This document shows positions 45,097 through 47,880 of a DNA stretch of 64,000 nt, in pieces. Location: positions 1 to 64,000 of the forward strand of contig NC_017966.1 of the NCBI RefSeq assembly GCF_000264455.2, in the 5' to 3' direction. Under the pieces are notes generated by a model. It saw only the letters and a program-made list of their open reading frames with translations. It did no database searches and was not told where the DNA came from. The translations under genes were made by a program, and so were the position numbers. Source of the DNA: Tistrella mobilis KA081020-065 (GTDB lineage: Bacteria; Pseudomonadota; Alphaproteobacteria; Tistrellales; Tistrellaceae). Numbering within the stretch: the stretch's first letter is position 1; the number at the start of each line of letters is the position of its first letter.

Positions 45097-45118
45097 GGCG
45101 GGCTCCTTTTTTGTTGGT

Positions 45119-45354
45119 CCCTCGCCGGGCGGGCGCTGCCGCGCCCTTGGCCGCCGCCTCAATGGCGGAAGTCTGTATGGCCCTCGCCGGGCGGCCACTG
45201 CCGTGGCCTTGGCCGCCGCCTCAATGGCGGGAGTCTGTTCGACCCTCGCCGGGCGGTCACTTCCGTGGCCTTGGCCGCCGCCTCAATGGCGGGAGTCTGT
45301 TAGTCCCTCGCCGGGCGGCCACTACCGTGGCCTTGGCCGCCGCCTCAATGGCGG
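45119..45354. repeat. Four tandem 62-bp palindromic repeats (array 1)
   Basis: Units at 45119-45180, 45181-45242, 45243-45304 and 45305-45354 (last one 50 bases). Each starts CCCTCGCCGGGCGG and ends CCGCCTCAATGGCGG. Inside each is a 6-bp stem with a 4-base loop: GGGCGC/GCGCCC in unit 1, GGCCAC/GTGGCC in units 2 and 4, and GGTCAC/GTGGCC in unit 3. A second stem is CCGCC/GGCGG. The array lies between the C45 acyltransferase gene and the DppB start, so if transcribed it is inside an operon. No unit encodes a convincing protein. Confidence 0.95.
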
Positions 45355-45400
45355 CTTGGGCCAGCCGTTGCAAGGGGCAACGACTGGCCCCGGCTCGTCG

Positions 45401-46564
45401 TCAGGCGCGGGGGGCGGTGATCGCGCCGTCCATGTCCAGCGTGTAGGTGGTGAAGCGGGTCGACAGGGCCGGCATGGGGCAGACCTCCATCAGGCCCAGC
45501 GCCGGTTCCATCACCACCATGGCGACGGTGGAGGAGATGGAGCCCCCGGCCCCCGGCCGGGGCGGGCGGCAGACCGAATAGGGGACGCCGAAATCGTCGA
45601 AGAAGGCGGCCTTCAGCACGTCGCGGTCGATCTGCCCGGCCTTGGCCGCCAGCGCCCGGCGCACCCGCCAGTCGCGATAGAAGCTTTCCGGCACGAAGGG
45701 GATGCCGGTGTCGCGGATCTTGGTGCGGGCGATGTCGCCGATCCAGTGATTGGCATGCACGATCATGCCGTTCTCGTCCGGCCAGATCGGGAAGGCCTCG
45801 TCGGGGGCGCATTCGAAATCGATCGCGAAGCCTTCCGACCAGCTCAGCATCATGTTGTTCGAGGCCGATTTGGGCGTGCAGGACACCGCCTTCATCGCCA
45901 GCGCCATATGCTGCTGTTCCAGCGCCTTGCGCCGGATCAGCGCCAGCGGCACGCCGACCTGGGCGTAGTCGCGGTCGCTTTCCAGATAATTGGCGGTGAT
46001 GGCGATGCCGGCCGAATTCAGGCCGCAGCGCGCCAGGCCGCCGGCTTCGGTCATGGTCAGCAGGTCGGGGCCGTCGTCGCGGCGGATCTTCAGCACCACG
46101 GTGGTGTGGGCGCATTCCGGCCGCCAGTCCCAGTTCTGGCCGTGGATCAGCCGGCCATGGGCCGTATGGCTGCCCAGGATCACCGCACCGGTGCATCCGT
46201 CCGGCTCCTCGTCCGGAATGCCGGCGCGCTGGCGGCCGATCTGCAGGATTTCGGTGCGGGCATTGATCAGCAGGATGTGTTCAAGGTCGCAGCCCGCCCC
46301 CTCGGCGATGCCGCGCATCTCTTCCACATAGGCGGGGTCGAAATTCTCCACCAGCGGCAGGAATTCCCGCGCGATGGCGGCGATCGCCGACCAGTCGTGG
46401 TTCATCGCCCGGAGCTGGGCGGTGTAGAGCGCAACACTGCCCAGAACCTGGGATTTCAGCGCCGCGCCATAGGTCCGCCCCCGCTCGACGGGGGTGCCGC
46501 GCAGCTCGACCATGGGGAAATCGACGACATCGGCGGCAGATGTCGGGGCCACGGGTGGGATCAT
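45401..46564 (-). CDS. C45 family Ntn-hydrolase (isopenicillin-N/6-APA acyltransferase-like)
   Basis: A 387-residue protein of the acyl-CoA:6-aminopenicillanate acyltransferase family. The autocatalytic N-terminal Cys is C124 in PDGCTGAVIL, which becomes the nucleophile after self-cleavage. Other family marks are RGIAEGAGCDLEHILLINAR TEIL, HGQNWDWRPECAHTTVVLKI and GLARCGLNSAGIAITANYL. Bacterial members hydrolyse or transfer amide-bound acyl groups. I chose ATG 46564 with AAGGAA upstream; in-frame starts further up run toward the GntR gene. It is divergent from the GntR gene and is followed by the importer genes. Confidence 0.9.
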   Translation of the reverse strand: MIPPVAPTSAADVVDFPMVELRGTPVERGRTYGAALKSQVLGSVALYTAQLRAMNHDWSAIAAIAREFLPLVENFDPAYVEEMRGIAEGAGCDLEHILLINARTEILQIGRQRAGIPDEEPDGCTGAVILGSHTAHGRLIHGQNWDWRPECAHTTVVLKIRRDDGPDLLTMTEAGGLARCGLNSAGIAITANYLESDRDYAQVGVPLALIRRKALEQQHMALAMKAVSCTPKSASNNMMLSWSEGFAIDFECAPDEAFPIWPDENGMIVHANHWIGDIARTKIRDTGIPFVPESFYRDWRVRRALAAKAGQIDRDVLKAAFFDDFGVPYSVCRPPRPGAGGSISSTVAMVVMEPALGLMEVCPMPALSTRFTTYTLDMDGAITAPRA

Positions 46565-46767
46565 CGGGGGAGGTTCCTTGGAAGAGGGCTGACCCATGTT
46601 GCACTGAAGGCGTGCAGAAGACAATTTTTCCGGGCCGGACCGCGCCGGGCGCAGCGCCGTGCAACCCGTGCTTGATCGGCGGCCGAAGCCGTGGTTAACA
46701 GGGGATGCATGCGCGCGGCCGGCCGGCGACCGGGCGCGCCTTCCCCACAGAGCAGGCTGTCTTTTCG

Positions 46768-47880
46768 ATGGTGACGATGCCCGAGGCCGAGGACGACGCC
46801 GCACCGCAGGCCGGGCTGTCGGCCCTGCAGATCGAGGTTGCCCGCCGCATCCTGGAACGCATCCGCGACGGCCGCTGGGCGCCGGGCGAACGCGCGCCGG
46901 AGCTGGCGCTGGCCAAGGCGCTGGACGTGTCGCGCACGCCGGTGCGCCGGGCGCTGGAACTGCTGGAAAGCGAAGGGCTGATCGCCCAGTCGCCCGGCCG
47001 CAGCTTCCGGCTGATCGAGGATCCCGCCGCCATCGAGGCCGCCGCTGCCCGCGTCGAGGCCCGGCTGCCCGCCTCGGATACCGAGCGGGTCTATCAGATG
47101 ATCATCGCCGACAAGGCCCAGGGGCGCATCGCCCAGGATGTTTCCGAGGCCGAGCTGCTGCCCCGCTATGGCGTCTCTCACGGCACGCTCCGCCGGGTGC
47201 TGATCCGCCTGTCGACCGAGGGGCTGGTCACCCGCCAGCCCGGCCATGGCTGGCGCTTCGTCGACAGCCTGGACGACGACGACGCGGTGACCGAAAGCTA
47301 TGCCTTCCGCATCGCCATCGAATGCCAGGCCCTGGCTCAGCCCCGCTACCGGGTCGACACCGCCCGCTTCGCCGAGCTGCGCGCCGCCCATCTGAAGGTG
47401 CTGGCCGCCGATCGCGAGACGCTGGACGAGCGCGAATGGTTCCGGGTCAACGCCGCCTTCCACGAGGCGATCGTGGCCGGCGCCGGCAACCGCTTCTTCG
47501 ACCAGGCCATCGCCCAGCAGAACAATCTCCGCCGCATCCAGGAACGCGACGAGTTCCGCCGGCTGACGCCTGATCGGGTGGTGCAGTCCTGTTGCGAACA
47601 TCTGGCGATCCTCCAGGCGATCGAGGCCGGCAACCGCCGGCTGGCGGCGGCCCTGCTCCGCCATCATCTGGCCCAGGCGGCGGAGTTCCCCGAGGACGAG
47701 GGAGGGAGTCTTTTTTTAGCCCCTCGCCGGGCGGGCACTGCCGTGCCCTTGGCCGCCGCCTCAATGGCGGGAGTCTGTTTGACCCTCGCCGGGCGGCCAC
47801 TTCCGTGGCCTTGGCCGCCGCCTCAATGGCGGCTGGGAGCCCTGTGGTCCTGCGGCGGGGAAGAGGCTCACTGGCGATAG
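46768..47880 (+). CDS. GntR regulator with two winged-helix domains, 3' end formed by repeats
   Basis: A 370-residue FCD-class regulator. Two separate winged helices are visible: about 15-85 (VARRILERIRDGRWAPGERA then SRTPVRRALELLESEGLIAQ) and about 100-165 (ELLPRYGVSHGTLRRVLIRL STEGLV). The FCD domain follows (EWFRVNAAFHEAIVAGAGNR). From about residue 313 the reading frame enters array 2 of the 62-bp repeat, adding ~58 Pro/Trp/Ala-rich residues. The original stop seems lost. Start 46768 is a best guess among ATG 46705, 46768 and 46777. It probably controls the divergent C45/importer operon. Confidence 0.85.
   Translation: MVTMPEAEDDAAPQAGLSALQIEVARRILERIRDGRWAPGERAPELALAKALDVSRTPVRRALELLESEGLIAQSPGRSFRLIEDPAAIEAAAARVEARLPASDTERVYQMIIADKAQGRIAQDVSEAELLPRYGVSHGTLRRVLIRLSTEGLVTRQPGHGWRFVDSLDDDDAVTESYAFRIAIECQALAQPRYRVDTARFAELRAAHLKVLAADRETLDEREWFRVNAAFHEAIVAGAGNRFFDQAIAQQNNLRRIQERDEFRRLTPDRVVQSCCEHLAILQAIEAGNRRLAAALLRHHLAQAAEFPEDEGGSLFLAPRRAGTAVPLAAASMAGVCLTLAGRPLPWPWPPPQWRLGALWSCGGEEAHWR
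47721..47832. repeat. Two tandem 62-bp palindromic repeats (array 2)
   Basis: Units at 47721-47782 and 47783-47832 of the same family as array 1. Stems are GGGCAC/GTGCCC in the first and GGCCAC/GTGGCC in the second, with the same CCGCC/GGCGG second stem. A T7 run lies just before (47711-47717), and a T-run likewise precedes array 1. The array is inside the 3' end of the GntR gene and next to the stop of the PaiB-like gene. Confidence 0.93.

Follow-up and report, generated by a model that had tools for sequence, protein, structure and literature searches.

A double-hairpin repeat with a conserved core and lineage-specific ends, dispersed in Tistrella mobilis and other alphaproteobacteria

The first 64,000 nucleotides of contig NC_017966.1 of Tistrella mobilis KA081020-065 (assembly GCF_000264455.2), hereafter the window, contain two short arrays of a palindromic repeat whose core of about 50 bases comprises two hairpins. 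The same core is dispersed over the host genome and occurs nearly unchanged in other genera, where its ends differ from lineage to lineage. We consider it probable that this is a non-autonomous, hairpin-forming mobile repeat of alphaproteobacteria, resembling miniature inverted-repeat transposable elements (MITEs) or repetitive extragenic palindromes (REPs), that is moved by an enzyme acting in trans and whose copies exchange cores with one another.

The window holds six core units, all on the + strand and head to tail, in two arrays (45119-45354 and 47721-47832), with units starting with CCCTCG at 45119, 45181, 45243 and 45305 in array 1 and at 47721 and 47783 in array 2, a spacing of 62. The features are as follows.

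45119..45168, + strand: core unit 1, stem GGGCGC/GCGCCC, loop TGCC
45181..45230, + strand: core unit 2, stem GGCCAC/GTGGCC, loop TGCC
45243..45292, + strand: core unit 3, stem GGTCAC/GTGGCC (one T.G wobble), loop TTCC
45305..45354, + strand: core unit 4, stem GGCCAC/GTGGCC, loop TACC
45358..45391, + strand: third, locus-specific hairpin (GGGCCAG..CTGGCCC) directly after unit 4, in the position of the right hairpin of other copies
47706..47719, + strand: GAGTC and T-tract, which usually form the element's left boundary in Tistrella, here located at the end of the GntR reading frame
47721..47770, + strand: core unit 5, stem GGGCAC/GTGCCC, loop TGCC
47771..47782, + strand: linker between units 5 and 6, GAGTCTGTTTGA
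47783..47832, + strand: core unit 6, stem GGCCAC/GTGGCC, loop TTCC

Hairpin 1 of each unit is built from a constant stem (GCCGG/TTGGC, with two G.T pairs), a GC bulge, a variable stem of 6 bp and a TNCC loop, and hairpin 2 (CCGCC TCAAT GGCGG, stem CCGCC/GGCGG and loop TCAAT) is constant in the window. A covariance model of the core recovers exactly these six units (73.9-82.7 bits), and Tandem Repeats Finder reports 45112-45354 (period 62, 3.9 copies, score 381), the pair of array 2 being missing from its output for the window. Thus, the unit positions, the model and the six stems uphold what the original prediction had read from the window: six units in two arrays sharing a core of about 50 bases, inner stems that vary while remaining paired (the wobble of unit 3 included), two base pairs that change on both sides, and a constant TNCC loop and second stem. 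The period, claimed to be exactly 62, is so in the window, and spacings of 61, 63, 64, 66, 94 and more are found elsewhere in the genome. The region of the third hairpin (45355-45395) has a predicted DNA fold of -15.5 kcal/mol (z -3.87), and the equivalent site after array 2 (47833-47875) has no such hairpin (z 0.59).

The repeat is clearly not a local one. When the 22-mer TTGGCCGCCGCCTCAATGGCGG is searched with up to 3 mismatches it is found at 61 places in the window's genome (G000), at 58 in a second genome of the same species (G041) and at 58 in a sister species (G001), whereas the reversed pattern gives 1, 2 and 1 places, respectively. In the window and 27 further stretches fetched from G000, 63 places score at E <= 0.1 with the covariance model; two of the pattern matches with 3 mismatches (L156, inside a gene, and L177) resemble chance, and the model finds neither. 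The approximately 60 units of G000 were grouped by hand into 31 arrays. The largest replicon, with 60% of the bases, carries 7 of them and the remaining four replicons share 24 (two-sided p 2.6e-5). Arrays in the genus have 1 to 6 units arranged head to tail, and each cluster in the other 27 fetched loci has all its units on a single strand. The search for genome-wide copies therefore confirms the dispersed repeat that had been predicted, and a local duplication is ruled out by these copies and by those in other genera.

Beyond the genus, the exact 22-mer is present in at least 111 stretches of a collection of 84,980 species. Among the matches listed the named carriers are Asticcacaulis, Magnetospirillum, Phaeospirillum and Telmatospirillum, together with metagenome-assembled genomes, mostly labelled Rhodospirillales, Rhodospirillaceae or alphaproteobacterial; in two loci (L112 and L116) the core lacks its left half. 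The covariance model finds the repeat in 12 of 289 genomes sampled from the class (six with matches above 50 bits), in 26 of 150 from the order of a Magnetospirillum, in 12 of 149 from the family of an Asticcacaulis, and in 3 of 299 from the phylum, namely G000 itself and two other members of its class, of which one gives a weak match; these counts are floors, with 18-37 candidates scored per genome, and they include the centre genomes as well as weak matches (E 1e-4 to 1e-3). Plasmid records have matches in Asticcacaulis and one Niveispirillum only, and phage and E. coli records have none at E 0.1 and 0.01. The distribution is thus patchy, yet the core is nearly unchanged between lineages.

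We have analyzed the pairing in an alignment of 78 of 104 distinct core sequences, from which near-duplicates were dropped by eye and L112 and L116 on account of a left half that is not core. In this alignment the core begins with CCCTCG and ends with GGCGG in nearly all rows, and 97.0% of 1319 cells are paired, as compared with 30.1-55.0% after shifting the partners by 1 to 3 columns, and changes on both sides occur in 110 cells, versus 34.5 in shuffles. As these sequences derive from exact 22-mer matches, hairpin 2 is unable to vary among them. In a wider search without that requirement, which still asks for the left arm and TTGGC, 173 of 238 distinct cores keep hairpin 2, and in these its pairs do vary: pair 3 is CG in 149, GC in 9 and AT in 5, and pair 4 is GC in 164 and CG in 5. 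The loop reads TCAAT in 126 and GCAAT in 35. The variation in both sets of pairs indicates that both hairpins covary between lineages and are real as pairings. Indeed, the claim that two-sided changes maintain the stems extends from the window to distant lineages, and neither of the two outcomes named beforehand as refuting the prediction (stem changes that do not compensate each other, or no copies elsewhere) has occurred.

A different matter is what these two-sided changes mean, as they had been taken for the mark of selection for a hairpin in RNA or in single-stranded DNA. Such selection acting on one strand should favour G.T over A.C among imperfect pairs. In 107 distinct variable stems (of 122, the 15 with fewer than four of six Watson-Crick pairs being set aside), 596 of 642 cells are Watson-Crick, 11 are G.T, 13 A.C and 22 other, so that no strand is favoured, which speaks against RNA selection by strand. 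Orthologous units were compared 30 times among the three genomes of the genus, in comparisons that are not independent and include one with a wrong register. The stem differs in 21 of them: 27 pairs carry changes in both partners and 9 in only one, although the flanks are ~88-99% identical. In one array (L166) stem-plus-loop blocks trade places. These results suggest that the changes in the genus arise as exchanged blocks and not as independent compensations: the pairing that had been claimed is real, and its reading as a mark of selection is not supported. Two-sided stem changes within the genus look like exchange of blocks rather than base-by-base repair.

There is an account of these same data that dispenses with exchange, in which the palindromes are kept by mutation alone, template switching copying one arm of the stem onto the other without any selection. 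The excess of two-sided over one-sided changes between orthologous units and the missing strand preference are both what it expects, and the process could well act inside a mobile repeat. However, the same stems recur at different loci of G000 (20 GGGCGC, 11 GGGTGC, 10 GGCCAC), which, like the block swaps within L166, points to exchange between copies, and the invariant loop and the second hairpin need another cause. We therefore regard template switching as an unlikely explanation.

Evidence for mobility of the repeat comes from Asticcacaulis, where we have analyzed 31 loci (221 kb) selected for the motif CTTGAGCGGAATGAT. Here the core is framed by a left hairpin (hpL, GATCATTATG..CATAATGATC) followed by a T-rich stretch, and by a right hairpin (hpR, GAGCGGAATGATT..AATCATTCCGCTC). 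The right hairpin adjoins a core in all 27 of its occurrences and the left one in 22 of 23, the remaining one adjoining a diverged core; the possibility that these hairpins are independent repeats beside which the core has settled is thus ruled out in this genus. Between the end dinucleotides the element measures 130-138 bp in 27 copies, whose left dinucleotide is TA in 17, TG in 8 and another in 2, and whose right dinucleotide is TA in 23 and another in 4. When the joined flanks of 11 loci were searched in 10 genomes, 9 had a relative with contiguous flanks, that is, with an uninterrupted site. In 7 of these 9 one or more relatives have a single TA at the site, whereas most filled copies are flanked by a TA on either side; counted by row and read by eye, the empty sites have TA in 14 of 22. 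By its empty sites and the duplication of TA the element is therefore a MITE, in Asticcacaulis only. The two ends agree only in part (GANCNNNATGATTNC, compared by eye), and no partner insertion sequence sharing terminal inverted repeats was found. Other lineages, also read by eye, have the same plan with different hairpin letters.

In Tistrella the left edge is a recurrent one of another kind. GAGTC lies at most 16 nt before CCCTCG in 33 of 57, 31 of 55 and 29 of 54 units of the three genomes, versus 1 of 118 elsewhere, and this edge is joined to varied sequence: a gene end, a unit end, a right hairpin or the truncated interior of another unit. At the copies seen in the genus there is no left hairpin of the Asticcacaulis type. 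Most G000 arrays with recovered flanks have a counterpart at the corresponding site of the sister genomes, and the number of units differs. At sites without an array, the relatives have a different hairpin or another palindromic repeat (L175, L159 and L217) or a truncated copy (L165, L170 and L214), and the content is less clear at L183, L195/L212 and L210.

Taken together, we infer the following course of events. At the heart of each copy is the conserved double-hairpin core; a T-rich stretch usually lies before it and a lineage-specific right hairpin after it, and many copies outside Tistrella have a left hairpin as well. An enzyme acting in trans would insert the element, in Asticcacaulis at a TA that becomes duplicated, as judged from the empty sites. 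Copies settle for the most part between genes, and frequently just after a stop codon. In Tistrella, the left boundary is often GAGTC and a run of T's, and copies would have multiplied head to tail into arrays of 1 to 6 units. Cores would then be exchanged between copies, and it is because of this exchange that both arms of a stem would change at once. The moving or exchanging machinery may recognize the folded core, using a hairpin formed in DNA (a cruciform, or a single strand during replication), so that DNA rather than RNA would be the relevant molecule and any effect on the transcripts of neighbouring genes would be secondary.

A number of observations weigh against this interpretation. 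A constant core with variable ends is not the trace expected of a transposase that reads terminal repeats, and no mobilising enzyme was found for the element in searches for Y1_Tnp and for IS630-type DDE_3. The TA duplication is shown in Asticcacaulis alone, two of the nine empty loci there have TG or TC instead of TA, and by the patterns used both end hairpins accompany only 19 of the 34 cores in the 31 loci, while 11 have one and 4 have neither. In Tistrella, no TA is present at the boundaries read, and empty or alternative sites are not clean, as they hold other sequence, other hairpins or truncated copies. Also in respect to pairing the picture is not uniform. The number of pairs with a two-sided change in the 78 cores is 5, a value that 157 of 500 shuffles reach, and 65 of the 238 cores lack hairpin 2. 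In some copies the stems read GCTCGC..GCTCGC, direct repeats whose middle is not complementary (hairpin 1 in L050, L057 and L087, hairpin 2 in L331). Finally, the DNA fold of a window unit is only moderately stable relative to shuffles (z -2.06 on the + strand, -0.98 on the - strand), and in its RNA fold an alternative pairing is preferred.

The location of the arrays relative to genes bears on another possibility, namely that the repeat is a cis-acting RNA element, a double hairpin in 3' untranslated or intercistronic regions that, on the + strand, ends transcripts or blocks 3' exonucleases. With gene positions taken from a purpose-built, retrained gene caller, unvalidated except for four window neighbours with Pfam matches, 23 of 30 classed arrays of G000 have an upstream gene in the same orientation, and 16 of those 23 start at most 25 nt from its stop codon; one further array (array 2 of the window) lies inside the open GntR frame. 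Within tandem gene pairs of this genome the co-oriented arrangement is favoured by 17 to 5. In agreement with an RNA, the two G.U pairs of the constant stem form on the + strand only, being A-U in 3 of 78 rows, and the copy at L175 occupies the spot where relatives have another hairpin behind the stop codon. However, among the 86 arrays classed in other organisms (34 were set aside as cut off or inside an open reading frame), orientation in tandem pairs is even (23 sense versus 27 antisense), with 26 arrays in convergent and 10 in divergent gaps; the common preference of the element is thus for gene ends rather than for a strand. In addition, the variable stem has no preference for G.U, a window unit folded as RNA gains little stability over shuffles (z -1.35), and no Rfam family matches the element, there being no match at gathering score in the window and, in seven sources, three matches that all lie away from it (tmRNA, tRNA). 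An RNA function as the primary role thus seems to us rather unlikely.

The original prediction had named the REPs and bacterial interspersed mosaic elements (BIMEs) as the nearest known class. In that class a Y1 tyrosine transposase, the REP-associated tyrosine transposase (RAYT), moves the palindromes as single strands. The element has several features of the class: both are palindromes scattered outside genes, in dozens of copies and frequently close to gene 3' ends, with bulged, irregularly paired hairpins whose wobble pairs differ between strands. However, the transposase, for a linked gene of which the prediction had proposed to look, is absent from most carriers. The Y1_Tnp profile (PF01797) has no match in the window's genome nor in 8 of the 10 other carriers searched, and is thus absent from 9 of 11 element-bearing genomes. 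G001 (part of the domain) and G044 have a single match each, and the controls E. coli and C. vibrioides are positive. The units do not alternate in orientation as in REP/BIME arrays, each has two different hairpins, and the empty sites of Asticcacaulis have TA. A GTAG or CGTC tag at one end, given as a feature of RAYT-associated REPs in PMC3733652, is missing from the core, which has CCCTCG and GGCGG at its ends. Membership in this class in the strict sense, and with it a RAYT as the mover, is therefore rejected on these features, and we hold it to be highly improbable. A donor of the IS630 type is likewise unsupported, as DDE_3 is present in two of the five Asticcacaulis genomes and its three loci (3.3-3.4 kb) have neither the ends nor the core of the element.

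Another known class, the CIR repeats of Caulobacter, is described in PMC2229807 as ~110 bp long, with two hairpin arms, a linker and a GANTC in the loop of one arm. In common with them, the element is alphaproteobacterial and intergenic, belongs to the same size class and, in Asticcacaulis, has two arms and a middle part; many right hairpins contain GATTC, a GANTC, and GAGTC is common at the left boundary in Tistrella. However, GANTC is not constant, being missing from several right hairpins and present just before the core in only 6 of 118 units outside Tistrella; the core itself has the limited occurrence in the Asticcacaulis family given above, and the parts available of the CIR descriptions (PMC2229807, PMC10969869), through which alone the comparison was made and not by alignment, do not mention a conserved double-hairpin core. 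We find such a relationship quite improbable.

The preferred reading, a mobile repeat moved in trans, thus places an element that works like a MITE or a REP outside the RAYT class by the features tested. ERIC, Correia and RUP appear as prokaryotic MITEs with TA at their ends in a table of PMC2229807 and share with the present element a length of ~130 bp, the apparent lack of a gene, dispersal and, as regards Asticcacaulis, insertion at TA. Unlike them, the present element keeps its centre and has ends that vary with the lineage; no autonomous partner was found for it, and it forms tandem arrays in Tistrella. A core that is conserved while the ends are replaced is the reverse of an ordinary MITE, and it is the most novel aspect of this family. 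It may be, although we put this forward as a doubtful proposal, that the repeat is mobile in an inside-out manner: a near-invariant core shared across alphaproteobacterial orders would carry interchangeable ends, and a mover without a Y1 transposase would read the folded core (loop KCAAT and stem GCCGG/TTGGC) and not terminal repeats, re-entering its own copies in Tistrella at the fixed GAGTC edge and so building arrays.

Modular organization is also known from the BOX elements of pneumococci, which have a repeated middle module; they too have a middle unit in variable number, but the organism is unrelated and the likeness is one of description, with sequences uncompared. In the literature searched, most subscription papers lying outside it, no description of the repeat was found, and in the searchable part of that text a 20-mer of the core does not occur, while papers on a human virus, on maize and on Salmonella contain a 12-mer.

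Small palindromic repeats shape the ends of bacterial genes, and to our knowledge their movers are rarely known outside the RAYT system. For such studies this repeat provides numerous copies, empty sites that are clean in one genus and arrays that change fast between sister genomes of another, and the conserved core could be used as bait. It also holds a lesson, as two-sided stem changes between neighbouring repeats need not mean compensatory selection: here, blocks appear to spread.

In the window, array 1 is flanked by two genes of the - strand, one for a transporter inner-membrane component and the other for an AAT-family acyltransferase, and array 2 lies behind a gene for a GntR/FCD regulator and faces a gene with an FMN-binding domain (Pfam names). 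The GntR/FCD reading frame (46768-47880) has no stop ahead of array 2 and reads through both of its units, whereas in G041 and G001 the T-tract at this gene is 1 base shorter, which brings a TAG of the element into frame; the repeat thus sets the end of the GntR/FCD protein. At the site of array 1, G001 has ~3.2 kb of long tandem repeats of several hundred bases each (L203:8480-11690), which contain a different palindromic family (GTCATCCCCGCGAAGGCGGGGATCC) and in which no genes are called. The array at L171 may lie at a rearrangement point, because in both sister genomes the matches to its two flanks are ~10 kb apart and oppositely oriented.

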